Origin: Chitinophagales bacterium
GTDB lineage: Bacteria > Bacteroidota > Bacteroidia > Chitinophagales > S012-47
NCBI GenBank assembly: GCA_015487695.1
Contig: WFPF01000034.1
Coordinates: forward strand, 1 to 41,293
Direction of reading: 5' to 3'
DNA: 41,293 bases
Below are positions 20,286 to 39,488 of this stretch, in pieces. The notes beneath the pieces were generated by a model. It was not told where the DNA came from. It ran no database searches and worked only from the letters and a program-made list of their open reading frames with translations. The first letter of the stretch is position 1; each line of letters starts with the position of its first letter. The translations under genes were made by a program, and so were the position numbers.

Positions 20286-23200
20286 ATGAACGGATTCAAG
20301 AAAATAAACACACTGGCAGGGTGGATGGTATTCCTCTTTGCTCTTGTAGTGTATGTACTTACACTCGAGCCGACCGTCAGTTTTTGGGACTGCGGAGAAT
20401 TTATCTCTGCAGCATACAAATTGGAAGTCGTTCACCCGCCCGGGTCTCCGATGCACATGCTCACGGGGCGCTTCTTCTCCCTTTTTGCCCCGGGCTTGCA
20501 GTATGTGGCCTATATGATCAATTTCCTCTCGGCCCTGACGAGTGCCTTTACCATCCTCTTTATGTTTTGGACATTGACCTACCTCATGCGGAAGGTGTAC
20601 AAAGCCGGACAGGAATATGACCGGCTCGATACCTTGCTCGTCATCGGCAGTGCAGTGATCGCGGCTTTGTCGGCTACTTTCCTTGATTCTTTCTGGTTTT
20701 CGGCTGTGGAGGGCGAAGTTTACGCCTACTCAGCCTTCTTTTTCTTTGCCATCGTGTGGGCCATGATTCGATGGGATGCCGCAGCCGACACACCCTATGC
20801 CGATCGCTGGCTGATACTCATAGGCTTTCTGGTGGGCCTCGGCCTCGGGGTACACCTCCTGCACCTGCTGGCTTTGCCGGCCCTGGCCTATATCTACTAT
20901 TTCAGAAAATACAAACCCTCACCCAAAGGATTCCTGATAACTTTCTTCGTAGGCTTTGGCTTGCTGGCCTTTGTCATGTGGGGGGTGCTCGACTATTTCA
21001 TTAAGATTGCCGTGAAGCTGGACATTCTTTTTGTGAACAGCTTCGGACTGCCCTTCAACAGCGGTGTGATCTTTTTCCTTTTGCTGGTATTCGGTCTTGG
21101 CATTTACTTTATCTCCTTTGCAAAGAAGAGAAAGAAACCGGCCCTGTGGACAGGCATTCTGGCTTTTCTCATGCTGATTATCGGCTTGTCGTCCTATTCA
21201 ACCGTCATGTCGAGGGCCAAAGCCAATCCGCCCATCAACATGAATGAACCGGCCGACATTGCCAGGCTCTATTCCTATCTGAAACGCGAACAATACGGAA
21301 GCCGTCCGCTGATCTACGGACCTACTTTCATGGCACAGCCGCTGGATCAGAAAGTGACGGGTACCCGCTATCAGGCAGATTTTGATGCGGGCAAATACAT
21401 TGAGATCGGAAAGAAAACAGAGTATGTTTTCGATGTAAGTAAAATTGAAGATCGCCTGAGGGCCTCTATACGGCAGGGAAACCCCAATGCTTCGGAAGCA
21501 CAAATCAACAATCTCCTGAACTCTTACCGTAAGAAAAACAAAAAGATGCTCTTCCCGCGCATGGGCTCGCTGATGAACAACGACCATGCCCGGCAATACA
21601 GGAAGTGGCTCAACCTTAAAGAAGGGGAAGTGCCCGGCTTTGGAGACAATATGCGTTTCTTTTTCGACTACCAGATCGGCTACATGTATTTCCGCTACTT
21701 CATGTGGAACTTCAGCGGCCGACAGGACAACCTGCAGGGGCACATCGACCGTGGTCTGAAAAACGGAAACTGGCTGACAGGTATTCGTTTTCTGGATGTC
21801 ATGCGACTGGGCAAGAGCAAACTGGATGATCCGGAGTCGAAGAACAATCCGGCCCGAAACAATTTCTACATGCTTCCTTTCCTCCTCGGTTTGCTGGGAC
21901 TGGTCTACAATTACAAAAAGAACAAACAGGTCTTCACGGTTCTTATGGTTCTCTTTTTCTTCTCGGGAATCATGCTCATCATCAATGCCAATGAACCTCC
22001 GAGCGAACCGCGCGAAAGAGACTATGCCCTGGCTTTGTCGTTCATCACCTATGCCATGTGGATCGGCATGGGCGTATTGGCGCTCTTCGAATTCCTGCGG
22101 GAAAAGATGAGCCGCAAGGCCGCTCTGGCGGCATCTCTGGCTGTCAGTGCCATCGTTCCGCTTATCATGGGCTTCCAGGGATGGGATGATCACGACCGCT
22201 CAGGCCGTTATGTGGCCCGTGATTCGGCATGGAATTATCTGGAATCGCTGGCACCCAATGCCATCCTGTTTACACAGGGCGACAACGATACCTATCCCCT
22301 TTGGTACATTCAGGAAGTGGAGCACGTACGACCCGATGTGCGCATTATTAATCTGAGCCTGCTGGCTGTAGACTGGTACATTGATCAGCTGAACAATCGC
22401 ATCAATGATGCTCCGCCTCTGAAACTCACATTTAACAAACGCGATTACATGGGTGACGGCCTTATCCAAACCCCCATCCAGAAGAGCAAGCGATTTATCA
22501 ATAAATACGGATACGACCTGCCTACGGTGTTGAAATATGTAAGGCAGCAATCACGCACCGGAGAGCGGGCCATTATTCCGGTCAAGAAATTCACGGTGAA
22601 AGTGGACTCTGCCCGTGCGGCCCGTGCCGGACTTATTCCCGAAAAATATGCGAACTACGTGGTGCCGCAAATTGAAGGCAAATTGAGAGGCAACTCCATT
22701 TTCCGCGATGAGCTGATGATCCTCGATATTATTGCTTCCAATTATCCGGAGCGCCCGATTTACTATTCGATTACGGTTGACCCCGCCAAGCAATTGGGCC
22801 TTGGCAAGTACTTGCAGCGGGAAGGTCTGGGCTATCGCCTCATGGCCGTGGCACCCCCGAGCAATGCGGGCGGAAATGGATTCGTCAATACGGATTTGAT
22901 GTATGATAACATCACACAGAAGTGGAAATTCGGCAATGTAGACAAGAAGAAAATGTTCATGGAGGAGTGGACAGATCGCACCGTACGCATGCTGAGGGGC
23001 AACCTCATCTATCTGGCCAATGTGATGGAAGTGGCCAATGAAAGCAAGGAAAAACGCAAAGATCTGCTGCGCATGACCTGGGAGAAATTCCCAAGCTGGA
23101 ATGTGCCCTACTATGATCCCAATGAACTCTATCCGGTATTAAGCCTCTCGGTCAATGCCGGTGACGATTCTCTGGTGCCCGTAGTGATTGAAGAAATGAT

Positions 23201-23507
23201 CAGGGTGCTGAAAGAGGACATCGCTTATAATTATGATGCCGGGGATATGGAGGTGAACCGCTCGAAATACGGGGGCGGAGCACGTGATTTTCTGTTCAAG
23301 GTATCGTCTCAGCAGGGGCAGAGCTTATCGGTGCATGGACGTCAGTTGCTGCGCGATGTATCGCTCATCAACACCATCGCCTCGCAGTTGGAAGACAAAG
23401 GGAAAAGTGAATGGCTGGATGCCTTCAAAAAAGGAATCAATGCCCTGGAAGAAGAGTACAATATGCAGCTGATCAATCCGGACCTGATGAATGTAAGCGG
23501 TGGATAG
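20286..23507 (+). CDS. DUF2723 multi-membrane protein (TMEM260-like glycosyltransferase, GT-C fold)
   Basis: A 1073-residue integral membrane protein. The N-terminal half has about ten hydrophobic helices with the DUF2723 signature near the start: EPTVSFWDCGEFISAAYKL followed by VVHPPGSP (about residues 28-55), an acidic luminal/periplasmic loop expected to hold the catalytic Asp/Glu of GT-C enzymes. The C-terminal half is soluble and periplasmic (NAILFTQGDNDTYPLWYIQ). The human relative TMEM260 is an O-mannosyltransferase, so protein or lipid glycosylation from a lipid-linked sugar is the likely role; this is family-based inference. Translation probably starts at ATG 20286. It overlaps rlmB by eight bases. 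Confidence 0.9.
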   Translation: MNGFKKINTLAGWMVFLFALVVYVLTLEPTVSFWDCGEFISAAYKLEVVHPPGSPMHMLTGRFFSLFAPGLQYVAYMINFLSALTSAFTILFMFWTLTYLMRKVYKAGQEYDRLDTLLVIGSAVIAALSATFLDSFWFSAVEGEVYAYSAFFFFAIVWAMIRWDAAADTPYADRWLILIGFLVGLGLGVHLLHLLALPALAYIYYFRKYKPSPKGFLITFFVGFGLLAFVMWGVLDYFIKIAVKLDILFVNSFGLPFNSGVIFFLLLVFGLGIYFISFAKKRKKPALWTGILAFLMLIIGLSSYSTVMSRAKANPPINMNEPADIARLYSYLKREQYGSRPLIYGPTFMAQPLDQKVTGTRYQADFDAGKYIEIGKKTEYVFDVSKIEDRLRASIRQGNPNASEAQINNLLNSYRKKNKKMLFPRMGSLMNNDHARQYRKWLNLKEGEVPGFGDNMRFFFDYQIGYMYFRYFMWNFSGRQDNLQGHIDRGLKNGNWLTGIRFLDVMRLGKSKLDDPESKNNPARNNFYMLPFLLGLLGLVYNYKKNKQVFTVLMVLFFFSGIMLIINANEPPSEPRERDYALALSFITYAMWIGMGVLALFEFLREKMSRKAALAASLAVSAIVPLIMGFQGWDDHDRSGRYVARDSAWNYLESLAPNAILFTQGDNDTYPLWYIQEVEHVRPDVRIINLSLLAVDWYIDQLNNRINDAPPLKLTFNKRDYMGDGLIQTPIQKSKRFINKYGYDLPTVLKYVRQQSRTGERAIIPVKKFTVKVDSARAARAGLIPEKYANYVVPQIEGKLRGNSIFRDELMILDIIASNYPERPIYYSITVDPAKQLGLGKYLQREGLGYRLMAVAPPSNAGGNGFVNTDLMYDNITQKWKFGNVDKKKMFMEEWTDRTVRMLRGNLIYLANVMEVANESKEKRKDLLRMTWEKFPSWNVPYYDPNELYPVLSLSVNAGDDSLVPVVIEEMIRVLKEDIAYNYDAGDMEVNRSKYGGGARDFLFKVSSQQGQSLSVHGRQLLRDVSLINTIASQLEDKGKSEWLDAFKKGINALEEEYNMQLINPDLMNVSGG

Positions 23508-24246
23508 AGAGTCGGGCGACAGGGTATATGGGCGGCACCCCGTGTTTGAGGTGTTGCAGTCGGGCAAATCAATTGACAGGGTCTGGATCTCCCGGGATGC
23601 GAGGGGCGAGTTGATCGGAGATATCCGTAAAATTTGCAAAGAGCGCAAGATCCCGGTACTCAATGTTCCTGCCCAGCGCCTAAAGCAGGAAGTAAAAGGC
23701 AATCACCAGGGGGTGTTGGCCTTTCTTTCCGGAGTGGAGTTTCAGCAGCTCGAAGATGTTCTTCCGCTGATCTACGAATCGGGCGAGCTCCCTTTCCTTC
23801 TCATTCTCGACCGTGTTTCGGATGTGCGCAATATCGGGGCCATTGCCCGGACGGCCTACATCGCGGGTGTACACGCCATCGTGGTGCCGAAAAAAGGATC
23901 ATCGGCTCTGGGAGCCGATGCCATGAAAACCTCAGCCGGAGCCCTTCAGCATATTCCCGTTTGCCGCCATCAGTCGCTTGACGAGGTCATGCAAATCTGC
24001 CACGACAACGGCATACGCATCTACGCACTGAGTGAAAAAGGAGAAAAAATGATAGGAGAGGAAGCTTTGAAGCTGCCGCTTGCTCTGATCATGGGTTCGG
24101 AAGGTGAGGGCATACATCCTCGTCTGCTTGCGCAGTGCGACCGGGTGCTGAAACTGCCCATGACCCGCTCATTCGACTCTTACAACGTGTCCGTAGCAGC
24201 CGGAATGGCCCTTTATGAAGTGATGCGCCAGAACAATCAGATGTGA
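23500..24246 (+). CDS. rlmB: 23S rRNA 2'-O-methyltransferase RlmB-like (TrmH/SpoU family)
   Basis: SAM-dependent 2'-O-ribose methyltransferase of the SPOUT class acting on RNA, most likely 23S rRNA. The N-terminal substrate domain starts VYGRHPVFEVLQSGKSIDRV; the knotted catalytic domain has RVSDVRNIGAIARTAYIAG (about residues 107-125), GSEGEGI (about 200-206) and LPMTRSFDSYNVSVAAGMAL (motif 3). Length 248 residues is normal. The start is GTG at 23500, overlapping the DUF2723 gene. Its stop overlaps the convergent threonine dehydrogenase gene by 10 bases. Confidence 0.93.
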   Translation: MDRESGDRVYGRHPVFEVLQSGKSIDRVWISRDARGELIGDIRKICKERKIPVLNVPAQRLKQEVKGNHQGVLAFLSGVEFQQLEDVLPLIYESGELPFLLILDRVSDVRNIGAIARTAYIAGVHAIVVPKKGSSALGADAMKTSAGALQHIPVCRHQSLDEVMQICHDNGIRIYALSEKGEKMIGEEALKLPLALIMGSEGEGIHPRLLAQCDRVLKLPMTRSFDSYNVSVAAGMALYEVMRQNNQM

Positions 24247-25296: not shown

Positions 25297-28203
25297 ATGC
25301 TCAATAAAAAAACAAAGAATCAGATCTTTCTGAATGTGCTCATCCTGCTAGGTTTTCTCTTGATTGCCGTCATTTACAGCTATCCCGTTCTCGAAGGGAT
25401 GGTACTGATACAGGGCGATATAGTACAACACAGGGGAATGGCTCATGAGTTGATTACTTACCGCCTGCTCACGGGCAATGAAGGCCTGTGGACCAACAGC
25501 ATGTTTAGCGGGATGCCCGGATTTTTTATTTCTGTTCATTACACGGCCAATCTCGTATGGGTCTTCTTAAAAGGACTTCTGAGTCCCTTCCCCGTGGCTG
25601 TCAACCTGCCTTTTATTTTAAGTGTGGGCATGTTTGTGCTGCTGAGGGCTTTCAAAGTCAATATCTGGCTGGCGGCTGTGGGAGCCCTGGCTTTTGCCTA
25701 TTCTTCAAACTATCTGATTTCGCTGGAGGCCGGACACAATACCAAAGTGGCTACCATGGGCTATTCAACCGGAGTCCTCGGAGGAATCATTATGGCCTAC
25801 CGGGGCAAGATCAGGCAGGGCCTTGCGATCATTCTCATTTTCATGGCCTTTATGTTTATTCCGAGCCACTTCCAGATTATCTATTACTTCCTTATCATGT
25901 CGCTTCTGATTGCCTCGTATTACTTTGTGGAGGCCTTGCGCGAGAAAAGGCTGATGCACTTTGCTAAAGTGAGCGGATGGATCATCCTTTTCGGAATACT
26001 GGCCTTGCTGCCAAACACAGCCAAAGTTTGGAGCCAGTATGAGCATTCGAAGGAGACCATGCGGGGCGGAGCTTCGGAACTGACGTACAAGGAAAACAAA
26101 GGAGGTCTCGAACGCGACTATGCATTTCGCTGGAGCCTGCGGCCCGAAGAGGTATTGACCATTTATGTGCCCTATTTCATGGGAGGCGGAAGCGGAGAAG
26201 CCCTGGGAGATAACTCAAATGTGGCCAAAGCACTTAAGAAGTTTAATATTCCGAGAGCGCAGCAAAAACAAATACTGGCCAGCGTGCCGACCTATTTTGG
26301 CGAGCAACCCTTTACGTCCGGGCCCAATTATTTCGGTGCCATCGTCATCTTCCTCTTTATTCTGAGCTTTTTCTTGGTCAGGGAGCCGCTGCGCTACTGG
26401 ATTTGGGCAGCTATCGTTCTTTCTTTTTTTATGGCCTGGGGCCGGCATTTCCCGGCTTTCAATAACTTTCTCTTTGACCATCTGCCGCTTTACAATAAAT
26501 TCCGCACCCCCTCGATGGCGCTTCACATTGCAGGTGTTATGGTTCCCTTGCTTGGTTTTGCAGCACTGATGAACTACTTCCGGAAATCGGGGGCTGCATC
26601 GGCCTTCTCGGGAATGGCAAGAATGGAAAGCAAGGAGGGAAAAGCCGGCCTGACGGAGGCAGTGAAGAAGAGTTTTTTCATTGCCATCGGCATACTTCTG
26701 CTTCTGGCTGCCTACGGTCTGGTGCGCGACTTTTCACCGGCCATTGATCAGCAGCGCCTGGGTGGTTCATTCTGGCTGCAGCAACAGGAGTTGTATGACG
26801 CGCTCGTTGCCGACAGGAAGTATCTCTACTTTATGGATATCCTCCGGTCGGGCATTTATGTGACACTCGCTGCTTCCCTGCTCTGGTTCTATCTCAGGGG
26901 AAAGCTGAAGAGCGGACTCCTCCTGCTGGCCGGTCTGGCCCTGCTCACCGTGGTGGATGTCTGGTCGGTGAGCAAGCGATATTTCAATGCCGATGATTTT
27001 GTGGAGGCCCGCTTTGCCGAACAGCGTGTTTCTCCCAGCGGAGCGGATATGCAGATTTTGCAATCGGAATTTAAAAAATGGCCCGAAGCACAGAGCAAGT
27101 TCGAAGCTCTTCGGAAAATATACGGACGCCAAAACAGGGAAGAACTGACCAAAACCCGTTTTGACGCTTTGCTTCTTGCATCGGACTACCGGGTTTTCAA
27201 TCTGAGTACCAACACTTTTAATGACGCCATTACCTCCTATTTTCATAAATCGGTAGGGGGCTATCACCCGGCCAAGCTGCAGCGCTATCAGGACATGATC
27301 GATTATCACCTGAGCAGGCGGCACATCCCGGTTATCAATATGCTGAACACACAATACATCATTGTTCCGGGCAGGAGTAAAGATCCGAACCGGAGTCCGG
27401 ATCCGATTGCTCAGCAGAATCCGGGGGCACTCGGCAATGCATGGTTTGTCTCGGGATTGATGGAAGTGCGGGGACCCAATGACGAGATTCGCATGCTTGA
27501 CAAAGCATACAGGGTGGAAGACCTGACCGGAAAGAACGGGACACACGTGCACAATGAGACCTTCTCGATCGATACCATCGGTTCATTTGAAGAGCTTATT
27601 CTTTCGACCGGCAGCGATTGGGCTTCCAACGGCTTCCGTTTCAATATGGAGAGCCTTCAGCTGCAAGCGGGCCAAAGCATCGTGATAGGCAGCAGCGATT
27701 CGGCCGACATCAAAGCAGGGGCATCCAATCCCGGAGTGGCTCCCCTCCACGCCCGCATTACGCTGGTCTATGAATTCCGCCCCGACCGCGATGCGATCTA
27801 CTCACACAAGCAGGCGGCTTACTTCGGGGGATTGCAGAATTTTGCTCCCGGAGAGGGCGATTATATCAAGCTGGAATCGTATGCACCCAATCGTTTGCTG
27901 TATGAAAGCAATGCATCAGGCGAGCGTTTGGCGGTCTTTTCGGAGATCTATTACCGCAATGGCTGGAAGGCCTATATAGACGGAGAATCGGTAGCACATG
28001 CCAATGTGGATTATATCCTCAGGGCTTTGCGGATTCCGGCAGGCAAACATCAGATTGAGTTTAAGTTTGAACCCAGGAGCTATTATACCGGTTCGAAAGT
28101 ATCGCTGGCCGGTTCCATTGTTTTGATCCTGGTCTTGCTGGGTCTGCTTTACAGCATGTATCGCGATGCGGCAAATGAGCCGGCAGCAAAAGAAGAAGCC
28201 TGA
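25297..28203 (+). CDS. YfhO-like multi-membrane protein (GT-C-type glycosyltransferase)
   Basis: A 968-residue membrane protein. One membrane helix near residues 10-28 precedes a periplasmic loop with GDIVQHRGMAHELITYR (acidic motif), then many helices up to about residue 490, where a further helix block starts (YVTLAASLLWFYLRG). A long soluble domain (about 550-920) ends in NGWKAYIDGESV, and a final helix is followed by a basic/acidic tail. This is the plan of YfhO-family proteins, some of which glycosylate lipoteichoic acid in Firmicutes; the Bacteroidota members are untested. Its stop overlaps the glycosyltransferase start (TGATG), so the two act in one operon, probably in glycan assembly. 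Confidence 0.88.
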   Translation: MLNKKTKNQIFLNVLILLGFLLIAVIYSYPVLEGMVLIQGDIVQHRGMAHELITYRLLTGNEGLWTNSMFSGMPGFFISVHYTANLVWVFLKGLLSPFPVAVNLPFILSVGMFVLLRAFKVNIWLAAVGALAFAYSSNYLISLEAGHNTKVATMGYSTGVLGGIIMAYRGKIRQGLAIILIFMAFMFIPSHFQIIYYFLIMSLLIASYYFVEALREKRLMHFAKVSGWIILFGILALLPNTAKVWSQYEHSKETMRGGASELTYKENKGGLERDYAFRWSLRPEEVLTIYVPYFMGGGSGEALGDNSNVAKALKKFNIPRAQQKQILASVPTYFGEQPFTSGPNYFGAIVIFLFILSFFLVREPLRYWIWAAIVLSFFMAWGRHFPAFNNFLFDHLPLYNKFRTPSMALHIAGVMVPLLGFAALMNYFRKSGAASAFSGMARMESKEGKAGLTEAVKKSFFIAIGILLLLAAYGLVRDFSPAIDQQRLGGSFWLQQQELYDALVADRKYLYFMDILRSGIYVTLAASLLWFYLRGKLKSGLLLLAGLALLTVVDVWSVSKRYFNADDFVEARFAEQRVSPSGADMQILQSEFKKWPEAQSKFEALRKIYGRQNREELTKTRFDALLLASDYRVFNLSTNTFNDAITSYFHKSVGGYHPAKLQRYQDMIDYHLSRRHIPVINMLNTQYIIVPGRSKDPNRSPDPIAQQNPGALGNAWFVSGLMEVRGPNDEIRMLDKAYRVEDLTGKNGTHVHNETFSIDTIGSFEELILSTGSDWASNGFRFNMESLQLQAGQSIVIGSSDSADIKAGASNPGVAPLHARITLVYEFRPDRDAIYSHKQAAYFGGLQNFAPGEGDYIKLESYAPNRLLYESNASGERLAVFSEIYYRNGWKAYIDGESVAHANVDYILRALRIPAGKHQIEFKFEPRSYYTGSKVSLAGSIVLILVLLGLLYSMYRDAANEPAAKEEA

Positions 28204-29513
28204 TGAAAAAAGTGCTGATAATCAGCTATTACTGGCCTCCGGCAAGTGGCCCGGGGGTGCAGCGTTGGTTGAAATTTGCCCGCTACCTACCGGATTATGG
28301 TTATCAGCCTCTGGTCATCACACCGAAAAGCGGAAGCTATCCCAACCGCGATGACACACTTCTTGCTGAGGTTCCGCCCTCGATTCAGGTGCTGCACACC
28401 AGGACGGTGGAACCGTTTAAGCTTTTCAACCTGCTCAGCGGGCAGCGCAAACGCGGCAAGGCCTCCGCTGTGGGGATGGCTGATATCCGGGGTTCGAAAT
28501 CATGGATTAAAAAGGCCGCTGCATATATCCGGGCCAACTGGTTTATTCCCGATGCCCGTGTCGGCTGGGTGCCCTACGCCCTGATGGCGGCTGAGAAACT
28601 GTTGAAAAGTGAAGAAGTGGTGGCGGTAATTACGACCGGTCCGCCACACAGCACGCACCTTAGCGGCTTGCGGTTGAAAAGAAAATACGGAATAAAATGG
28701 CTTGCAGACATGCGCGATCCGTGGACGGAGATTTATTACAATGCCTATTTGCCGCGAACGGCCAAAAGCCAGGCCCGGGATCAGGCGCTGGAAGACGAGG
28801 TTTTGCGTTCGGCAGATTTGGTGTTGACCGTAAGCCCGGGTCTTCAGCGCGCTTTTAGCAATAGGGCGGCTCGCACGGAAGTGATCTACAACGGCTATGA
28901 CCCGGCTGACTTTGACGAAATGAAAACAACAGAGGCTACGGACTCTTTTTTTAAGCTCTCCTATGTTGGGAATTTTAAAGCCAATCAAAATATCGAAGCT
29001 TTGTGGCAGGCGATTGTGTCATTGCTTGAAAGAAATGAAGCTTTTAAAAAGCATTTCAGGCTGGAGTTGACCGGAAATATCAGCCCCAGCGTGGTGGATA
29101 CAATAGCAAAGACCGGCCTGGAACCTTATCTGGAGCTGAAAGAATTTGCTGAGCACCGCAAGGCCGTGGCCACGATGCTCAGCAGTTCGGTCCTTCTTTT
29201 CCCCATTCCGCAGACGGCCGGAAACAAGCAAATATTAACAGGTAAAATTTTTGAGTATCTGGCATCGGGCACACCCATGCTGTCCATCGGACCGCTTGAT
29301 GGGGATGCCGCTCATATTTTGAGCCGGGCCGGACGCTATCCCATGATTGATTATGCAGATCAGGAATTGATCGAGAAAAGACTGGGTGATCTTTTTGAAG
29401 CGTGGCTTCCGGAGAAAAAATTAAAGAAAGTTCCTGCGAAGAATGTCGAAGAATTCTCGCGTCCTGCGCTCACCGGCCGGCTCGTGGAACTGATTGAAAC
29501 GCTGCGAGAATGA
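28203..29513 (+). CDS. Glycosyltransferase, family 4-like (GT-B fold)
   Basis: A 436-residue cytoplasmic or membrane-associated glycosyltransferase that transfers a sugar from an activated nucleotide donor. The N-terminal acceptor domain starts VLIISYYWPPASGPGVQRW, with the loop ITTGPPHSTHLSG and WLADMRDPWTE; the C-terminal donor domain has SYVGNFKANQNIEALW and GKIFEYLASGTPML (about residues 341-354), where the Glu is in the usual E-x7-E region. It is coupled to the YfhO gene (ATG at 28203) and to the next gene (ATGA at 29510-29513). The sugar is not predictable. Confidence 0.9.
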   Translation: MKKVLIISYYWPPASGPGVQRWLKFARYLPDYGYQPLVITPKSGSYPNRDDTLLAEVPPSIQVLHTRTVEPFKLFNLLSGQRKRGKASAVGMADIRGSKSWIKKAAAYIRANWFIPDARVGWVPYALMAAEKLLKSEEVVAVITTGPPHSTHLSGLRLKRKYGIKWLADMRDPWTEIYYNAYLPRTAKSQARDQALEDEVLRSADLVLTVSPGLQRAFSNRAARTEVIYNGYDPADFDEMKTTEATDSFFKLSYVGNFKANQNIEALWQAIVSLLERNEAFKKHFRLELTGNISPSVVDTIAKTGLEPYLELKEFAEHRKAVATMLSSSVLLFPIPQTAGNKQILTGKIFEYLASGTPMLSIGPLDGDAAHILSRAGRYPMIDYADQELIEKRLGDLFEAWLPEKKLKKVPAKNVEEFSRPALTGRLVELIETLRE

Positions 29514-30628
29514 AAGAAATCATTGATATTGCCACATTCGAGCGATCCTCCTCCTTTTATCCGGAGCTGGATCTCATACTGACGGTCAAGAGTTTCGACT
29601 TGTCGGGTATTCGGAAGAGGTATCTGAATTCGAGAAAAAAGAACAGCGGCCGGGCAGGAAGTGTAGAGCGCAGAGAGCCGGGAAAAGGCGGATTGGTAGA
29701 GTTGAAAATTGCCGCTGGCCGCATTCGCGATTTGGAGGTGATAAGCCGCCTGACAGAACCCCGGGGCATTGATATGTCCGGGGGTGCATTGGCCATAGCC
29801 GCAGAAAATAAGATTTATCATCTCAGCAGGGAGGGAAAGACAAGCGTACTCGAGGACCCCTGGTTCTCATATATTCATACCGTACGTTTCAATCCGCATG
29901 ATCCCGCTTACCTTCTGATTTCCTCTTCCGGCCTTGATCTGATCAAAGAATATGATATCAACTCGGGAAGGTGTAGCTATGAATGGCTGGCCTGGGAACA
30001 CGGGTATGCAAGAAGCCGCGATCCGGAAAGCGGTGAAACGATCTGGCTGACGCGTTCACCCACCGAAGCAGAACGGAGGCGAAGCCGCGGTGAGCAGGTA
30101 AGACTGCTGGAAAACCCGCAGAACGAGCATCTTCCCACTGCCATGCGGGCCGCCTTTATCAACTCCGCAGACTATTCGGACAAGCCGGGGAAAATTATCG
30201 CTACATTTTTTCATGAGGGCAAGGTGGTGGAGATTGACCGCGAGAGTGGCCGCACACGTGATCTTCTCAATGATCTGAAGAATCCGCACGGAGGGCATGT
30301 CTATAATGCGCAGCTGCGCGCAACAAGTACCGGATCAGGTGAGATTGTTTTAAAAGGCGAGAGGGAACAGCGAATCTCGCTGGCTTCACTCAAAGGAAAG
30401 CCCAGGGAGTTGGGCGATCTGGAATGGATACAAAACAGCATTTCGCATGAGAATCTGATCATTGCCATCGACTCCAACCGTACTTCATTTGTAATAATAG
30501 ATCCTGCCTCTGCCCGCTATGATCTCATTCCGTATGATGACAACTGGGCCGTTCAGGACCTCGTGATAGGCCGGGCAAGTGAGGCCCAGCATCATAAACT
30601 GAATGCCTTAAGTGAACCACCGGATTAG
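29510..30628 (+). CDS. Protein of unknown function, probable beta-propeller
   Basis: This 372-residue protein starts inside the stop of the glycosyltransferase gene (ATGA), so it is made with it. It has no signal peptide or membrane helix. Repeating strands with small-hydrophobic-aspartate turns (GGALAIAAENKIYHLSREG, HTVRFNPHDPAYLLISSSG, GKIIATFFHEGKVVEIDRES) suggest a WD/NHL-like propeller of about six blades. The motif NPHGGHVYNAQL (about residues 262-273) carries conserved-looking His residues. I do not recognise the family. A role with the YfhO and GT proteins in glycan synthesis is inferred only from the operon. It overlaps the convergent PIG-L gene by 21 bases. Confidence 0.75.
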   Translation: MKEIIDIATFERSSSFYPELDLILTVKSFDLSGIRKRYLNSRKKNSGRAGSVERREPGKGGLVELKIAAGRIRDLEVISRLTEPRGIDMSGGALAIAAENKIYHLSREGKTSVLEDPWFSYIHTVRFNPHDPAYLLISSSGLDLIKEYDINSGRCSYEWLAWEHGYARSRDPESGETIWLTRSPTEAERRRSRGEQVRLLENPQNEHLPTAMRAAFINSADYSDKPGKIIATFFHEGKVVEIDRESGRTRDLLNDLKNPHGGHVYNAQLRATSTGSGEIVLKGEREQRISLASLKGKPRELGDLEWIQNSISHENLIIAIDSNRTSFVIIDPASARYDLIPYDDNWAVQDLVIGRASEAQHHKLNALSEPPD

Positions 30629-31234
30629 CTCGAAAGCTTCGGCATATTCCACATTGATTTGAATTCCGCGCACCTGCGCCAGGCTTCGTATGAAATTATC
30701 TTTCATGTAGGGGCGGTGTTGCTGGCTTTTGTACTCATGCAGGGCATTCATCTTGGCGTCCAATTGAGAGGAACTCACTTTAACATGAAAATTGGAATTA
30801 AAAGAGAGGCTGTTCCATGGAAGTTCATATCCCAGAATCCGTGAATGTTTAAAAGCCCTGAGGCCTTCTTCGTATATCACATGGTGGTCCTGGTGTACAT
30901 CATTGCTGTTGGGAAGCAGTACAAGATCAGGACTTATTTCCTTCTTTAATTTTACCATTTCTTCGAGAATGGCCTGCCTGTATTGAGGGAAGTCGCGCAC
31001 CGGAAAATCGAAAGTGATCGTATGGCTTTTGTCAATGCCCAGTTTTGAAACGGCTGACCGAAGTTCCTCATAGAGCTGGTACGAAGCATAGCCGGCAGGC
31101 AGGGATTTCTTGCAGGGCGAGAATGCCGCATACCAGATTTCCTTTCCTTCATCTGACCATCGTCTGAGCGATGCCCCGCTTGACAACTCTCCATCATCGG
31201 GGTGCGGAGCAAGTAACAATATTCTTTCAATCAC
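30608..31234 (-). CDS. PIG-L/LmbE family deacetylase
   Basis: Zinc-dependent N-deacetylase of the LmbE/PIG-L fold, acting on N-acetylated sugars or related small amides. The metal motif PHPDD is at residues 10-14 (His11, Asp13, Asp14), and a second ligand region NDVHQDH follows at 111-117 (His114, Asp116, His117). Length is 208 residues, normal for the compact bacterial form. It lies 16 bases after the polysaccharide-deacetylase-like gene on the same strand, so the two are probably one operon, and its neighbours suggest a sugar substrate for the surface glycan. Bacillithiol-type deacetylation is a possible alternative given the YtxJ-like gene, but the locus is different. Confidence 0.9.
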   Translation of the reverse strand: MIERILLLAPHPDDGELSSGASLRRWSDEGKEIWYAAFSPCKKSLPAGYASYQLYEELRSAVSKLGIDKSHTITFDFPVRDFPQYRQAILEEMVKLKKEISPDLVLLPNSNDVHQDHHVIYEEGLRAFKHSRILGYELPWNSLSFNSNFHVKVSSSQLDAKMNALHEYKSQQHRPYMKDNFIRSLAQVRGIQINVEYAEAFELIRWFT

Positions 31235-31250
31235 GGATTACATTTTTTTA

Positions 31251-32591
31251 TCAGAAAGAGTCAAAATTAATGGAATATTCTTTTTGAATCTCTTCGGGCC
31301 CGATCGACCGGATATTGTGATCGCGGCAATACTGTAGAATGCTTATGTATACAGACTTCCAGCCTTTAAACTTGTATGGGGTAAAGAACTGGTTATGCCA
31401 AAGGATGCTGATTACGGCATCATTCTTATACGATTCGAGAAATTGAAGAATGAGTTCCTGCGCCCGTGAAGGCGAAAATTTCTTATAATTCCTGAGTGTA
31501 CGATCCATGATATTCAACGGGACTTCGACAAAATTAAAGGGCCGGTCATTCAAAATGTCATAGGGATGATAGGGCAGCGAAAAACAGTTTCTGAATCCCG
31601 GTTCTTCGGCAAAACCGAGGGAATAGTCCTGGGTTACATTGTGGGAAAGAACGGGAAAATCATTTTGAATATTAAATCGAAGGAAATGATAGCGGTTAAT
31701 CTTTTCATATAAACCCTCAGGCAGCTTTTCAAATTCTTCGCTGAAAGAAAAGTGAGAGGCACTTTTATGCAGGCCATTGACCGAGCCCCTCGATTTAATT
31801 TTTTGCATCAACTCGCGGATCTGTGCAGACCCAATGCGATAGTCGGCATTCTTAATTGCCGGGTCAAGCGTGCTTTTACCTTTTACGGGCAGCCAGAAGA
31901 AGACGGAGGTAAACCCAAATTGCTCTTCAATTTGCAGGATATCCTCGATGGTATTCCATACACTTTTTGTCTTTGGATTGGTGAGAAGTGCCGTTAGCAA
32001 GCTGATAAACCCTTTGGCATTCCCTTGTTTCAGGGTGGCCAGCCAATCCTGGGGAAAAGAGCCAAAAAGAGAATCAATATCATGAGTCAGCACAATGCGT
32101 GATGATCTCGGCTCCCTTCTTGAAACCCGGTGACGTGTTTGAATTTCTTTGATTAGTGCATCGAAGTATTTGTTAACGAGATTCTTTCCGGCCACAGCGT
32201 AGTGCTTCTGATAACTGGCCTCGTATGGAAATCTTCCAAATGCATCACGGGCATTGTTGTCGTATTCCTGCAGGCAGCTGATCATGTAAAAGGCAGAAGA
32301 AAGATAGTCCGGCCTTCCATCCTCACATTTGATTACAGCTTCCTCCTTAAAATATTCTCTCCAGTCAAAACTATGGCTGCAATATTTCTCAAGAAACAGC
32401 TCCGATATGCGAATGTCTGCTTCAGCATCTTCAGAAACAGTTATCACCGTACCCGCTTCGAATGAGAGTCCGCACGTATGCTGAAGCAGAGCAAGCGTGT
32501 ATTTCAAAGCATTTTCCGCTTTTTGATATTGTGGTTTGAGATTGATCCTGAATGACACGGGCAAGTATTCTTGAGGCATGAAAATACTCAT
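31251..32591 (-). CDS. Polysaccharide-deacetylase-like protein (NodB-type fold, long N-terminal region)
   Basis: I start it at the ATG at 32591, giving about 446 residues; an in-frame TTG at 32609 and an ATG at 32579 are alternatives. The N-terminal 160 residues resemble DUF7033, which is often joined to deacetylase domains in Bacteroidota glycan loci. The NodB-like domain shows LTHDID (168-173; Asp pair as in the metal site), a FFWLPVKG strand, VNGLHKSASHF (271-281) and a C-terminal ISILWHNQFF. No signal peptide, so it may act in the cytoplasm or on membrane-linked sugars. Deacetylase activity is likely but not proven; some DUF7033 relatives may be inactive. Confidence 0.83.
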   Translation of the reverse strand: MSIFMPQEYLPVSFRINLKPQYQKAENALKYTLALLQHTCGLSFEAGTVITVSEDAEADIRISELFLEKYCSHSFDWREYFKEEAVIKCEDGRPDYLSSAFYMISCLQEYDNNARDAFGRFPYEASYQKHYAVAGKNLVNKYFDALIKEIQTRHRVSRREPRSSRIVLTHDIDSLFGSFPQDWLATLKQGNAKGFISLLTALLTNPKTKSVWNTIEDILQIEEQFGFTSVFFWLPVKGKSTLDPAIKNADYRIGSAQIRELMQKIKSRGSVNGLHKSASHFSFSEEFEKLPEGLYEKINRYHFLRFNIQNDFPVLSHNVTQDYSLGFAEEPGFRNCFSLPYHPYDILNDRPFNFVEVPLNIMDRTLRNYKKFSPSRAQELILQFLESYKNDAVISILWHNQFFTPYKFKGWKSVYISILQYCRDHNIRSIGPEEIQKEYSINFDSF

Positions 32592-32658
32592 GCCAGGCAC
32601 TTTATCCAATTGAATTAAGGTTCTTTGAAAGCAAAATGATATTATTGACCGAGCCGAG

Positions 32659-32772: not shown

Positions 32773-34602
32773 ATGTGTGGTATAGCCGGTTTTATTGACG
32801 CAGGGTTTGGCAGGGATTCCGGAATGGAGCTATTGAGCCGGATGCTGGAAACAATCGGACATCGCGGGCCTGACTCCCGGGGATTATGGAATGAGGGTCC
32901 TGTATTTCTGGGTCACAACCGACTAAGCATTATTGACCTTTCGGACGAAGCGAACCAACCTTTTTCGGACGGGGAATTGCACCTGGTTTTTAATGGTGAA
33001 ATTTACAATTATATCGAATTGAGGGAGGAGTTGATATCTCTCGGACAGGAGTTTAGGACGAGCTCCGATACGGAAGTACTAATTAAAAGCTATCGACAAT
33101 GGGGCACGGAATGTGTGGAGCGCTTTGTGGGCATGTGGGCATTTGCCCTGTGGGACAGCCGCTCGGAGCAACTTTTTTGCTCTCGTGACCGCTTCGGGAT
33201 AAAGCCTTTTTATTATATAAGCAATGGGGAGCGTTTCTGCTTTGCATCAGAATATAAACCATTAAAAAAGACAGACCTCTTTTCAAACGAGCTAAATATA
33301 AATCAGATATACAGAGGCCTGCAGCTCGGATGGTTAAATTACAAGGATGAAAGCTATTTTAGCTGTATTAAAATTCTGCCGGCCGCACACAACTTGCTGA
33401 TCACCAAAGGCCGGATAAAGATTTGGAGATACTGGGATGTGGATGTTACCCGAAAAAGCTCACTTGGATTTGAGGAAAAGAAGGAAGAATTCAAGAGATT
33501 GTTTTTACAGAGTATACGCCAGCATTCCCGTTCAGATGTGGTGCTGGCCAGTTGCCTGAGCGGTGGATTGGACAGCTCTGCCATCGTGTCTGCAGCCGCC
33601 AGGCTGAATTCGAAAAATGTATTTAAGACATTCACCATATACTATGACGGAGACGGGGAGGTAGATGAGCGGGAATTCGCCAATGCCGTTATTGAGGACA
33701 ACTCAAATGTGGAGCCCTATTTCTACTCTCCCCGCGAGACGGAAATAGAAGAGGCCCTTCATGATGTGATCCATTATTTTGACGTTCCCATTGCCGGTAG
33801 TGCCCCGATTTCACGGCATTTTCTGATGCGGATGATTCGGGAGCATGACATTAAGGTAGTCCTGGATGGCCAGGGGTCAGACGAGTATCTGGCCGGATAT
33901 CGGCATACGGCTCCCAGATATCTGGCAGATGTCATAAGCAGGCTACATCCGGGCAAATATATGAAAACGCTTTCTGTCATCCGGCAGAATGAGGGTCTTG
34001 CATTTGGAAACGTGATGGATGTTATTGCAAAATCCTTTCTGCATTTGTTTTTAAACGAGGAACAGATCGCTAACCTTGAATACAGAAAAGGTATTTTTCT
34101 TCCGTTAAACAATCAATCAATTGTCAGACTGAAGAAGCAGAAAGGCAGTAGAGTGGATGAGTTTCTTTATCACTTGCTCTTTGATACCAAATTGAATTCC
34201 CTCTTACATACGGAAGACAGAAATTCCATGGCCTACTCCATTGAAGCCCGGGTTCCGTTTTTAGACCATCGATTGGTCGAATTCGGATTCACACTGAGCA
34301 ATGATGACCGATATCATATGGGCGTGAGCAAGTATATACTCAGGGAGGGATTGAAGGATCTACTGCCTGACAAAGTTTATAACAGAAAAGACAAAAAGGG
34401 ATTTGTAACACCCGGAGAAACGAAATGGCTTAGAGGGCCACTTAGGCATTACCTCGGGGAAATGAAGCAGGCAGACTATGATTTTCTGCATATGGATCGT
34501 GTGAGGTCACTGATTGCTGAGTACGAAAGTGGTTCAAATAAGGATGTCAGGCTGATTTGGAGATTAATGACTTTGCACATTTGGTTGAAGAAGAATATAT
34601 AA
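32773..34602 (+). CDS. asnB: Asparagine synthase-like glutamine amidotransferase
   Basis: Transfers ammonia from glutamine to an acid group in an ATP-dependent reaction. The N-terminal glutaminase domain begins MCGIAGFID with Cys2 as the nucleophile and continues IGHRGPDSRG and GEIYNYIELRE. The synthase domain has the PP-loop SGGLDSS at residues 263-269 and VVLDGQGSDEYLAGY later. Length is 609 residues, as in AsnB. In glycan clusters such enzymes amidate uronic acids or similar sugars rather than aspartate (compare WbpS-type proteins), and the neighbours fit that reading; plain asparagine synthesis is the alternative. It is first in the plus-strand operon with a glycosyltransferase and a sulfotransferase. 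Confidence 0.9.
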   Translation: MCGIAGFIDAGFGRDSGMELLSRMLETIGHRGPDSRGLWNEGPVFLGHNRLSIIDLSDEANQPFSDGELHLVFNGEIYNYIELREELISLGQEFRTSSDTEVLIKSYRQWGTECVERFVGMWAFALWDSRSEQLFCSRDRFGIKPFYYISNGERFCFASEYKPLKKTDLFSNELNINQIYRGLQLGWLNYKDESYFSCIKILPAAHNLLITKGRIKIWRYWDVDVTRKSSLGFEEKKEEFKRLFLQSIRQHSRSDVVLASCLSGGLDSSAIVSAAARLNSKNVFKTFTIYYDGDGEVDEREFANAVIEDNSNVEPYFYSPRETEIEEALHDVIHYFDVPIAGSAPISRHFLMRMIREHDIKVVLDGQGSDEYLAGYRHTAPRYLADVISRLHPGKYMKTLSVIRQNEGLAFGNVMDVIAKSFLHLFLNEEQIANLEYRKGIFLPLNNQSIVRLKKQKGSRVDEFLYHLLFDTKLNSLLHTEDRNSMAYSIEARVPFLDHRLVEFGFTLSNDDRYHMGVSKYILREGLKDLLPDKVYNRKDKKGFVTPGETKWLRGPLRHYLGEMKQADYDFLHMDRVRSLIAEYESGSNKDVRLIWRLMTLHIWLKKNI

Positions 34603-34631
34603 AAATAGAAGTCAAATCATAAACATCAGAG

Positions 34632-35777
34632 ATGAGAGTTGCGATCGTACAGAATAGAATTGTAGTAGGCGGGATTGTGCACGTGATGATGAATATGATT
34701 GAATATTTGAATCATAGAGGAATTAAACCGGATATTGTCACGCTAAAAAGCGAATATGACGAAGAAGGTCTGAAGCAGCTTTTTAATAAAGAAGTTGATT
34801 TCGGCCTGAAGAAGATTTTTATTAACACCAAGATGCCTTACGAATGGAACCTCCTGTGGTTTAACATATTACTCAGGAGATATGCGCGAAACTATGATTT
34901 GATCATCTCACATAACAACGTTTCTTTTCTCGGCCCTGATGTTCCAACGCTTTCCTACATTCATTTCCCCAGAAAAGCCAGGGTAATGAGCAAGTGGCGC
35001 TCGATTCATGATAAAAGTGCGGGAAAGATGCATCCCTTTATAGCTAGCCGTGATCCGTTTTATTTGGCGCGGGGTCTGTATTCTTTGAACAGGAAATTCC
35101 GTTCCAATGAGGTAGTAATGGCAAATTCTGAATTTACACGAAATGAAATTGCACGCTGTTACGAGATTGATAGCAAGGAAATTATTGTGGCATATCCTCC
35201 GATTGTAAATCGTGATAAGGGTGGTGGAGGTATATTGAGTGGAAAACGAAAAAACATTATGACCCTCGGGCGTTTTGTGGCTTCAAAAAGGCAGATTGAG
35301 CAAATTCAAATGGCCAAAAAACTACCTCAATACCATTTTTTTATCTGCGGTTTTGTGGATGACCAGTCATACTTGGAGAAGTGCCGGCAGATCTTACGGG
35401 ATGAGCAAATTGAAAATGTTTCTTTGCACCCGAATTTGGAGTCGACTGAGTTGAAAAAGATTTTTCAGAGTTGTGCTTTTTTCCTGCATTCGGTTCGAAA
35501 TGAGCCTTTTGGAATTACAGCCATTCAGGCAGTACAGAACGGGTGTATTCCTATTGTTCACAATTCAGGCGGACAGAAAGAGACGGTACCGATAGCAGAA
35601 CTGCGATATGAGAACATTGAGGAGGCCATTGAGAAACTTAGTGCATTGTCGGAAATGAATGATGCTACCTTGCAGTCCTTTCATAAGGAGTTAAAGGATA
35701 ATCTTGATAAATTCACTGAAGAAGCATTTTACAGGCAGATGGAAAGAGCTATGAAAAAGTTATCCTTCAATGATTAA
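34632..35777 (+). CDS. Glycosyltransferase family 4-like
   Basis: A 381-residue GT-B glycosyltransferase. The N-terminus VAIVQNRIVVGGIVHVMMNM has the Gly loop of the acceptor domain. The donor domain is clear: IMTLGRFVASKRQIEQI (about residues 212-228), then HPNLESTELKKIFQSCAFFLHS and EPFGITAIQAVQNGCIPIV. In the last motif the second Glu of the E-x7-E pattern is replaced by Gln (Glu in EPFG is kept), a feature seen in some GT4 enzymes. It follows asnB by 29 bases and overlaps the sulfotransferase start by eight bases. The donor and acceptor are unknown. Confidence 0.88.
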   Translation: MRVAIVQNRIVVGGIVHVMMNMIEYLNHRGIKPDIVTLKSEYDEEGLKQLFNKEVDFGLKKIFINTKMPYEWNLLWFNILLRRYARNYDLIISHNNVSFLGPDVPTLSYIHFPRKARVMSKWRSIHDKSAGKMHPFIASRDPFYLARGLYSLNRKFRSNEVVMANSEFTRNEIARCYEIDSKEIIVAYPPIVNRDKGGGGILSGKRKNIMTLGRFVASKRQIEQIQMAKKLPQYHFFICGFVDDQSYLEKCRQILRDEQIENVSLHPNLESTELKKIFQSCAFFLHSVRNEPFGITAIQAVQNGCIPIVHNSGGQKETVPIAELRYENIEEAIEKLSALSEMNDATLQSFHKELKDNLDKFTEEAFYRQMERAMKKLSFND

Positions 35778-36642
35778 TGAGTACTACCATAAAAGTTTGG
35801 ACCTTCTGAAAAGGTGGTGGAATCGAAACCGGCAATTTCTCGGTGAAGAAGCGGAGCGAAGGACCGTCTATACGTATAAAGATAGGGATATTGATAAATT
35901 GCATGAGCGAGTGCTCAATGAGGCGAGTCCCTGCTTTGTGCTTTCCACAGGCAGAGCAGGTACGGCATTGCTTACGAAGATTCTGTCTTATCATAGGGGA
36001 GTGAGTGTTGAGCATAACCCGATTCCCGAACTTACTTTTCATAGCGGCTATGCATACAAGCACTGGAAGGACAAGGATGTAGTTTGCAGGGCTATGATAG
36101 ATGCTGCGCGCTACGAATATGTCCGCAATGCATTTATACGGAATGAGATTTTTGTTGAAACCAATCCACGAATCACCTTTTTTGCGCATCAGTTGGCGTC
36201 CTTATTCCCCAAAGCAAAATTTATCCATCTGATTAGACATCCTGCAGATTTTATTGCAAGCGGCATAGCAAGAAACTGGTATAACGAAGGCCGCATCAGG
36301 GATGAGGGGAAGATAAAAGCGGAGAAACGGACAGAGTGGGAGAAGTGGTCGCAGGCAGATAAAATAGCATGGCTTTGGCAGGAGACAAATGCTTTTATAG
36401 AAGAGTTTAAAGAGCAATGTGGTAGAGACCGCATTCATACGGTACGTGCAGAAGATTTTTTTAAAGACGCAAATGTATCGAGGGAAATATCAATGTTCAT
36501 CGGGCTGGAACCATTGCCGGACAAAGCGTTGGAAAAGCTTATTTCAAAACGTGTAAATGTACAGCACGGGAAGGATAAGGTTGAATTGGCTTCTGAAACT
36601 CTTCAAAGCATGCCTTTAATGCAAAAATATTATTCTAGCTAA
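35770..36642 (+). CDS. Sulfotransferase family protein (first)
   Basis: Cytosolic or membrane-associated sulfotransferase of the PAPS-using P-loop fold, 290 residues. The 5'-phosphosulfate loop is LSTGRAGTALLTKIL (58-72), and the 3'-phosphate motif is FIHLIRHPADFIASGI (151-166), with Arg157 and Ser164. These are the two best-known PAPS contacts. The likely acceptor is a sugar or glycolipid, given the GT and flippase neighbours. The start overlaps the glycosyltransferase by eight bases, which implies co-translation. The short spacing of four bases to the end of the convergent second sulfotransferase is notable. Confidence 0.87.
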   Translation: MINEYYHKSLDLLKRWWNRNRQFLGEEAERRTVYTYKDRDIDKLHERVLNEASPCFVLSTGRAGTALLTKILSYHRGVSVEHNPIPELTFHSGYAYKHWKDKDVVCRAMIDAARYEYVRNAFIRNEIFVETNPRITFFAHQLASLFPKAKFIHLIRHPADFIASGIARNWYNEGRIRDEGKIKAEKRTEWEKWSQADKIAWLWQETNAFIEEFKEQCGRDRIHTVRAEDFFKDANVSREISMFIGLEPLPDKALEKLISKRVNVQHGKDKVELASETLQSMPLMQKYYSS

Positions 36643-36646
36643 GATC

Positions 36647-37591
36647 TTATTCGAGGTACTTTAAGTCGATGCCAAGCATTTGCAGAGCTTCCTCCCAGCG
36701 TGGGTCTTTTGCCGCAAACAAAGGTCTGGGTGATTTTACGTTTTCCTTAACCCAGTGAATGACATTTTTGGGTATTTGCAGATCTAAAAAGTTGTAGATC
36801 TCAGTTATTTGTCGGACTGGATCATTACAAAATGTTTCGTGCTCAATGCTTAAAAACTTTTCTCCAAAATACTTCTGTCCGTCTGCAATCATCTTTTCGT
36901 TAAATTCCTTCCAGATAAACAAAAGCTTTATATATGCGGGCTGATCTTCCAGGTCTTTTCTCTTTGCTATATCTCTTATGTAGTAATTGGCAATATCTTC
37001 CTGACTCCAATGATTGTATCCGGCACGTATTCTGAAGAACTCCTCGGGGTCTGTCTGCTCATACTTATTTGAATACCGACCAAGTACTCGGGATGTTTTT
37101 CTTTTAAGTAAAGAGATGCCACTTAAACGATTGTCCCTAATCCCGAATATGTGCGAAGTGACAAAGCGTATCGGGTTCTTTTGAATATGAATCATGTTCG
37201 AGTTGGGAGCAATATGGTATAACTGATCAATGAGAAATGTAGCACGAACGAATTTAAGAACTGTATTTTCTTCGGAATTGATGAGAAACGATAAATATGC
37301 TTTAATAAATTGGGGTAGTTCATGTCTGCTGCTTTCCAGCAGATAGTTGCTACCGGCTCCAAAATTAAAATCGGATATCTTTTTTTTTAGATGTTGATCT
37401 TTAATAAAAGCCTGGCGCATCGTCCTAATCTTTTCATTGAAGTCAATATCCGTTGCCATAGAGCCTCCGCCTTTCATTTTGACTGCGCGATTTAGTGGCT
37501 CGTAGAACAAATGAAGATTGGCATCTTGAAAAAATGTATCAAATAATATAGTTGTACCTGACCTCCGCAGCCCGATAATGTATGCATTCAT
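36647..37591 (-). CDS. Sulfotransferase family protein (second)
   Basis: A 314-residue PAPS-type sulfotransferase on the opposite strand to its neighbours. The 5'-phosphosulfate loop is at the very start, GLRRSGTTIL (residues 7-16). The 3'-phosphate motif is MIHIQKNPIRFVTSHIFGIR (133-152), with Asn139 and Ser146 where Arg and Ser are usual; the normal Arg is replaced by Asn-Pro-Ile-Arg, so the position is ambiguous. Little similarity to the first sulfotransferase is visible outside these motifs, so it is not a recent duplicate. It has its own -7 box at 37622-37629. Confidence 0.87.
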   Translation of the reverse strand: MNAYIIGLRRSGTTILFDTFFQDANLHLFYEPLNRAVKMKGGGSMATDIDFNEKIRTMRQAFIKDQHLKKKISDFNFGAGSNYLLESSRHELPQFIKAYLSFLINSEENTVLKFVRATFLIDQLYHIAPNSNMIHIQKNPIRFVTSHIFGIRDNRLSGISLLKRKTSRVLGRYSNKYEQTDPEEFFRIRAGYNHWSQEDIANYYIRDIAKRKDLEDQPAYIKLLFIWKEFNEKMIADGQKYFGEKFLSIEHETFCNDPVRQITEIYNFLDLQIPKNVIHWVKENVKSPRPLFAAKDPRWEEALQMLGIDLKYLE

Positions 37592-37621
37592 TGAGTTGTT
37601 TTTAAAAACTATGGAATTTTA

Positions 37622-37629
37622 CAAAGTTA
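37622..37629 (-). promoter_or_regulatory. Candidate -7 box (TAACTTTG) for the second sulfotransferase
   Basis: On the minus strand TAACTTTG fits the consensus exactly and is 30 bases before the ATG at 37591. It sits in the short gap to the divergent flippase gene. No clear -33 element. Confidence 0.4.
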
Positions 37630-37665
37630 TCTTTTCAGACATTAAAAAAATATCTTCGCAATGAG

Positions 37666-39141: not shown

Positions 39142-39488
39142 ACAGGGATAAAGATTAATTAAATTTTCTTTCCTGTAGCAAGATAAAAAGTTACAGTTAA
39201 TAACTTCCACATCGTTTATGAAGGATTTTCGCGGAATTAATGTTCGTGACCTCTCAGATTCCCAAGAGGAGTAATTGCATTCAATCATGGATAGGTATCA
39301 TCCTTGCCTGACAATCAATGATTCATATTGCAGTAAGTCCCTACCAAACAACTACTGATCGATTCCTCACTCTTGCCAGTCAACTCCACATTACAAATGA
39401 AAATGAGCAGCTGGTATGTAATCTTTCTCAAAACAGTAAGCTAGAAAGGGAGTATATTCTTATATTTAACGAGTATAAAGGCAATGAT
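39142..39488 (+). other. Gap between flippase and protease; no gene seen
   Basis: About 350 bases without a convincing gene. It holds a small open frame (39218-39274, 18 codons) that I do not believe, and a frame that is open from the ATG at 39318 straight into the protease gene. No TAnnTTTG box or strong terminator was recognised; TATATTTA near 39460 is a weak match. Confidence 0.6.

Follow-up and report, generated by a model that had tools for sequence, protein, structure and literature searches.

We analysed a 41,293-nucleotide stretch of DNA (the window), which is contig WFPF01000034.1 (C34 in our numbering) of the 2.77-Mb genome of a Chitinophagales bacterium, and in which a run of three overlapping genes ends with one for a beta-propeller protein that has no Pfam or NCBIfam family. 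This third gene encodes a member of a conserved, unnamed protein family within the known group of propeller folds. Its relatives lie mostly beside genes for a glycosyltransferase and a deacetylase, from which we conclude that the propeller probably helps to build the surface sugar coat.

Gene order and overlaps at the propeller locus

The first gene (25297-28203, forward strand) encodes a YfhO-family membrane protein of 968 amino acids, a putative GT-C glycosyltransferase and a common core gene. Its score against Pfam PF09586 was 33.2 bits (cut-off 28.5), the match being confined to residues 859-936 and the last 78 positions of the profile. The second (28203-29513, forward) encodes a GT4-like (GT-B) glycosyltransferase (GT) of 436 amino acids (PF13439, E = 6.5e-9; PF13579, E = 2.2e-8), and the third (29510-30628, forward) the six-bladed propeller protein of 372 amino acids. 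Overlaps of one to four bases had been described for these genes and were confirmed: the YfhO stop codon TGA (28201-28203) shares one base with the GT start codon ATG at 28203 (TGATG), and the GT stop codon TGA (29511-29513) overlaps the propeller start codon ATG at 29510 by four bases (ATGA). When the third gene was shuffled 2000 times by mononucleotide, no open reading frame (ORF) of 372 amino acids appeared, the longest being 331. Convergent to the propeller gene, and overlapping it tail to tail by 21 bases, is a gene for a PIG-L (LmbE-like) de-N-acetylase (30608-31234, reverse strand; PF02585, E = 1.2e-15, 58.6 bits with a cut-off of 28.2). This gene was absent from the original prediction, whose set of partners was therefore incomplete.

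Fold and conserved residues of the propeller protein

The third gene had been said to lack a known family, and the searches bore this out: the protein had no match in Pfam at E ≤ 1, PF05935 of the arylsulfate sulfotransferases (ASST) included, and none in NCBIfam at E ≤ 0.1, and it fell below the cut-offs of DUF4915 and TIGR03032. The family was aligned in 51 rows, consisting of the window protein and the family loci from the genome scan given below; four of the 54 loci were omitted (L034, L040 and the fragments L045 and L055). Among these 51 sequences, 11 matched PF16261 (DUF4915) at E ≤ 1 (best 7.9e-7), three matched PF05935 at the same threshold (best 2e-4) and five touched TIGR03032.

An AlphaFold2 model built from the 51 rows had a predicted local distance difference test score (pLDDT) of 95.6 and a predicted template modelling score of 0.92, and its strands were read as six blades, the last one closed by the N-terminal strands. 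The propeller-like character proposed earlier was thus upheld by fold prediction. All 50 matches listed, by Foldseek and VIA-align alike, were propellers or propeller-bearing proteins, judging by their titles. LRP6, LRP4 and designed Pizza propellers reached Z values of 20-23 over about 216-251 residues, the ASST structure 3elq a Z of 22.5 over 285 residues (root-mean-square deviation 3.4), and Cpz4 (9kf4) a Z of 22.4 over 276 residues. Given that the Z values are tied, it is coverage and not Z that favours the sulfotransferase group. In sequence searches of the PDB, the protein alone as query gave a single match (RACK1, E = 2). The profile of 51 rows matched a designed Pizza propeller at E = 1.3e-4 and other structures less well, none of which indicated a function. 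The Ca-bound protein Cj1041c ranked second in Foldseek and had E = 0.23 by profile; a literature search for it found no paper. No signal peptide was seen by eye, no prediction tool having been used for that, and the protein would be cytosolic. At locus L058 (8765-21073), an Omnitrophota ORF of more than 4100 amino acids, which runs past the end of the locus, combines the propeller domain of the family with HEAT and TPR repeats.

Thirteen columns are invariant in the alignment, the window's own sequence included. Conservation peaked where the inner strands begin (residues 84, 122, 217, 259, 307 and 347; strands taken from the model, blades assigned by reading), where the four columns at each start had a mean entropy of 0.68 bits as compared to 2.04 bits for randomly chosen blocks, none of 20000 being as low. 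For the starts of the remaining strands the mean was 2.32 bits. Residues E83, P84, H123, N218, H260 and Q308 are invariant in 51/51 sequences, as are D321, R324, W159 and W162. The motif NPHGGHVYN, singled out in the original prediction, was located at residues 258-266 and is kept at P259 (50/51), H260 (51/51) and G261 (47/51). The position of the invariant residues at the inner-strand starts, from which they would face the central channel, suggests that E83, H123, N218, H260 and Q308 mark a predicted ligand or active site.

Two groups of propellers resemble the family in sequence or site. The DUF4915/TIGR03032 (PF16261) propellers are similar in length to the window protein. A comparison by hhalign with 17 DUF4915 rows and three ASST rows linked the family weakly to DUF4915: for the whole family the PH motif and the first His aligned by profile (probability 89, E = 2.4e-6), but the probability fell to 15 and 28 when the 40 close and the 11 distant members were compared separately. 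DUF4915 was not matched by the window protein itself; two other genes in its genome are over the DUF4915 cut-off. A PDB sequence search with a DUF4915 protein of this genome gave no match, and searches of open-licence literature turned up no paper on either DUF4915 or TIGR03032.

For the ASST group, the catalytic site of Escherichia coli AssT (EcAST) is given as H252, H356, N358, R374, H436 and T501 (PMC13426309). The six-bladed fold of ASST and Cpz4 could be aligned with the window protein over 275-289 residues, with H252 and N358 of EcAST falling on H123 and N218. EcAST H356 falls on F216, a position with His in 10/51 members, and R374 on F234, or on other residues in other members. The sulfated H436 corresponds to H260 by blade order alone, and hhalign sets PH260 against a different stretch of the sulfotransferase, APHKGW; for the N-terminal beta-sandwich of EcAST there is no room in the window protein. 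For ASST the profile link reached a probability of 64 when all members were taken together; the 11 distant members by themselves gave 80.6 and the 40 close ones 0.9. The protein thus has the six-bladed propeller, stays below the PF05935 cut-off and lacks the full EcAST catalytic set. Since R374 and H356 are replaced and part of the site is kept, it is fold-related to ASST but is not an ASST. Judging from these alignments, shared ancestry with the ASST and DUF4915 propellers is likely, though not certain.

Neighbours of the propeller gene across genomes

A genome scan with two peptide patterns, which biases the set towards similar proteins, found propeller homologues across several phyla at 54 loci. 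Of these, 43 (L015-L056 and L061) are classed as close and the other 11 as distant. Among the 42 close loci with upstream DNA, 39 have a GT gene immediately before the propeller gene, and in 32 of these 39 the two genes overlap. On the downstream side, 38 of the 42 close loci with DNA there have a PIG-L gene no more than 1.3 kb away (the exceptions are L023, L025, L034 and L050), and it is convergent in all of these except L051. Another gene separates propeller and PIG-L in L022, L027 and L028, and in L048 (L012 in an earlier numbering) the PIG-L gene is hidden by an antisense ORF in the ORF listing and was placed there by tblastn. The Bacteroidota genomes of L023, L025 and L050 have PIG-L elsewhere (216, 243 and 281 bits; 250-291 bits in three control genomes with the same search), and the best PIG-L match in the Phycisphaerae genome of L034 reached just 64 bits. 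Extra genes beside or between GT and propeller were seen in L022 (11110-11883), L027 (5275-6048), L028 (9419-10150) and L049 (a 251-amino-acid gene, L013 8044-8799). Those of L028 and L049 are methyltransferases and that of L022 has no Pfam match.

At L034 the PIG-L position is taken by a convergent gene of at least 214 amino acids with an RHDVD motif, broken off at the contig end. In five of the 11 distant loci (L057, L062, L063, L067 and L068), which belong to Proteobacteria, Melainabacteria and Woesearchaeota, a homologue of this gene immediately precedes the propeller gene. A model of the L057 protein (pLDDT 82.5 from 5 rows) had its best match in PplD (Z 13.6 over 175 residues), with PgaB, IcaB and ArnD also found, and all 50 matches listed were CE4-, NodB- or ChbG-type deacetylases or esterases. 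The Foldseek result was weaker: ranks 1-6 were CE4 enzymes at E values of 2.7e-4 to 8.4e-4, and rank 7 was homocitrate synthase at a nearly equal E value. Of the five partner genes, two matched PF01522 at E ≤ 10, the best at 9e-4 with 19.6 bits, below the cut-off of 23.1. According to the model, this substitute partner is predicted to have a NodB-type fold, unrelated to that of PIG-L. The propeller genes of the betaproteobacterial loci L064 and L066 are near repeat proteins of 413-426 amino acids, FG-GAP-like by eye, and near genes labelled by eye as MmgE/PrpD-like and YggS-like.

The association was also seen in sequence distances, compared for the 30 loci in which all three proteins were covered at sufficient length: the correlation was r = 0.78 for propeller and GT and r = 0.59 for propeller and PIG-L (each 0 of 2000 permutations), and 0.71 for GT and PIG-L. 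Shared descent alone could yield such correlations.

The distribution of the genes was then counted in 99 related genomes, the window's own included; six close loci (L015, L016, L033, L041, L048 and L049) are in this set (as G001, G012, G015, G002, G076 and G051), and given that the genomes are related, the counts are not independent events. The propeller was found in 7/99 genomes, spread over four families, YfhO homologues (E ≤ 1e-20) in 94/99, GT (E ≤ 1e-30) in 54/99, and PIG-L in 31/99, with at least 190 bits in 23, including all seven propeller genomes. PIG-L lies within about 1.5 kb of GT in 7/7 propeller genomes as compared to 1/47 (G028) of those with GT but without the propeller, as read by eye from match positions, most genomes showing one GT place; in G047 a weaker GT paralogue is about 3.7 kb from PIG-L. 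At 11 GT loci without a propeller, picked among the better GT matches after most had been seen next to YfhO, YfhO was directly upstream in 10 and PIG-L present in one. The propeller occurred in 3/395 genomes of a phylum sample (own genome included) and, with strong matches, in 7 of 298 genomes of an order sample, where three weak matches (E values of 1e-7 to 4e-4) were excluded as members. Given that the YfhO-GT pair is common without the propeller, the propeller is an add-on to this pair, and the partner that tracks it is the de-N-acetylase.

These counts bear on the reading of the original prediction, in which the propeller would belong to the YfhO glycosylation step alone. The prediction was supported in part. 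Linkage to GT was found as given above, and YfhO is upstream in 26 of the 35 close loci with enough DNA and elsewhere in the locus in three of the other nine. Neither of the outcomes named as refuting that prediction, a failed propeller model or a gene mostly away from YfhO and GT, was observed. On the other hand, YfhO-GT pairs exist without the propeller and none of the 11 distant loci had a YfhO match at E ≤ 1e-4, so that an exclusive tie to YfhO appears improbable. The best reading is that the propeller belongs to a surface-glycan pathway and not specifically to YfhO. YfhO in Gram-positive bacteria is described as moving a sugar from the C55-P (undecaprenyl phosphate) carrier onto an extracellular polymer (PMC8035078), and a PglB/STT3-like branch has been described among YfhO-like proteins (PMC10584680). 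The CsbB-GtcA-YfhO transmembrane glycosylation systems (PMC8035078) likewise encode a YfhO-type membrane protein with a sugar-handling GT. However, CsbB is a GT-A enzyme and the GT of the window is GT4-like (GT-B), so the coupled GT is not a GT-A enzyme of the kind that activates the sugar on C55-P, and the window locus has the propeller and PIG-L in addition.

A second membrane protein had been taken as a hint of a related glycosylation step. The DUF2723 gene exists (PF11028, E = 3.1e-66) and ends 1.8 kb upstream of YfhO, but DUF2723 was near in just one of the 21 close loci whose upstream DNA extended for 9 kb or more; the link is thus not conserved and the hint not supported. No paper joining DUF2723 with YfhO was found in open-licence literature searches. 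Within 20286-24246 this TMEM260-like gene and an ORF for the rRNA methyltransferase RlmB overlap by 8 bases, and DUF2723 and RlmB are likewise upstream of YfhO in L049.

The combination of a GT4 enzyme and PIG-L matches the BshA/BshB layout of a bacillithiol-type pathway, to which the propeller could be an accessory, and the best NCBIfam match of the window PIG-L is BshB1 (56.4 bits). Both this score and a second one of 51 bits are below the BshB1 cut-off (TIGR04001, 182.5), and the same genome has BshB1 (contig C53, 242.6 bits) and BshA (contig C130, 566.4 bits, cut-off 273.7) elsewhere. Unless those two copies are inactive, the bacillithiol pathway is rejected for this genome, and we regard this explanation as hardly credible.

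A putative role in surface-glycan synthesis

Downstream of the PIG-L gene the window holds a surface-glycan locus that contains a deacetylase, an amidotransferase, a GT4 enzyme, two sulfotransferases and a flippase. The DUF7033/VimE-like polysaccharide deacetylase (31251-32609, reverse) matched PF23019 (E = 1.6e-15) and, below the cut-off of 440, NCBIfam VimE (78.5 bits); the asparagine-synthase-like amidotransferase (32773-34602, forward) scored 438 bits with TIGR01536, and the Wzx-type flippase (Polysacc_synt; 37666-39141, forward) matched PF01943 (E = 8.6e-9). The two sulfotransferase genes (PF13469; 35770-37591) are tail to tail and near the gene for the propeller protein, which resembles arylsulfotransferases in fold. 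The GC content drops from about 0.52 to 0.40 across the locus (34000-41293), as if part of it had been acquired. A subtilase with PKD domains extends past the window end.

From the partner rule, GT together with a de-N-acetylase, the propeller would seem to handle a sugar that loses its acetyl group. With moderate confidence we propose that it works together with GT and the deacetylase on an amino sugar that is part of a surface glycan; that it does so by catalysis is more conjectural. The GT4-like enzyme would first attach an N-acetylated sugar to an acceptor bound to a carrier or a nucleotide; PIG-L, or a CE4/NodB enzyme in other phyla, would then strip the acetyl group; the propeller would act on the amino sugar so formed, or hold it, within the central channel with E83, H123, N218, H260 and Q308; and membrane enzymes, Wzx and YfhO among them, would then export and use the glycan. 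The order of these reactions, the substrate and a propeller that is an enzyme rather than a mere binding protein are presumed in this scheme. Open-licence literature searches found no paper combining four of the five terms PIG-L, deacetylase, beta-propeller, polysaccharide biosynthesis and Bacteroidota.

Several observations weigh against this proposal. Three close loci (L034, L040 and L056) have no adjacent GT, L040 and L056 retaining PIG-L, and five of the 11 distant loci (L058, L060, L064, L065 and L066) have no match to either deacetylase, L059 having just 278 bases of upstream DNA, too few to tell. PIG-L with at least 190 bits is also present in 16/92 related genomes without the propeller, which indicates that PIG-L has other uses. 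Polysaccharide loci commonly contain deacetylases, so some adjacency is expected for free. The profile link to ASST vanishes for the close relatives alone, and no relative seen here has a known ligand, metal or activity. Propellers often merely bind partners, and the same conservation pattern could be that of a binding site.

A somewhat less probable alternative casts the propeller as a non-catalytic scaffold or sensor, which would keep GT and deacetylase together or gate them. The tight coupling with GT, with overlapping genes in most close loci, would fit this, as would the replacement of the arylsulfotransferase R374 by F234 or others and the fact that LRP6, LRP4 and nidogen, which are binding proteins, were the highest-scoring propeller matches. 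A scaffold accounts less well for conservation that clusters at the inner-strand starts, including polar residues kept over several phyla, and the change of fold in the partner deacetylase should break a specific interface. A more specific version of the catalytic proposal is rather unlikely, though it deserves mention: a cytosolic propeller transferase with a central H260 that would transfer a group such as sulfuryl or acyl to the freshly uncovered amine and could pair with two unrelated deacetylase folds. N-deacetylation and N-sulfotransfer are paired in heparan sulfate synthesis, and by analogy such a transferase might be the propeller counterpart of the heparan sulfate N-deacetylase/N-sulfotransferase pairing.

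As regards the proposed action on an amino sugar with GT and deacetylase, Salibacter halophilus KCTC 52047 (L035), a named strain with the YfhO-GT-propeller-PIG-L set, allows the function to be tested directly. An unnamed family is now defined by the fold predicted for it, its probable site and the partner rule of a GT plus a de-N-acetylase, whose fold can be either of two unrelated ones, and this finding may also open up the DUF4915-type propellers.

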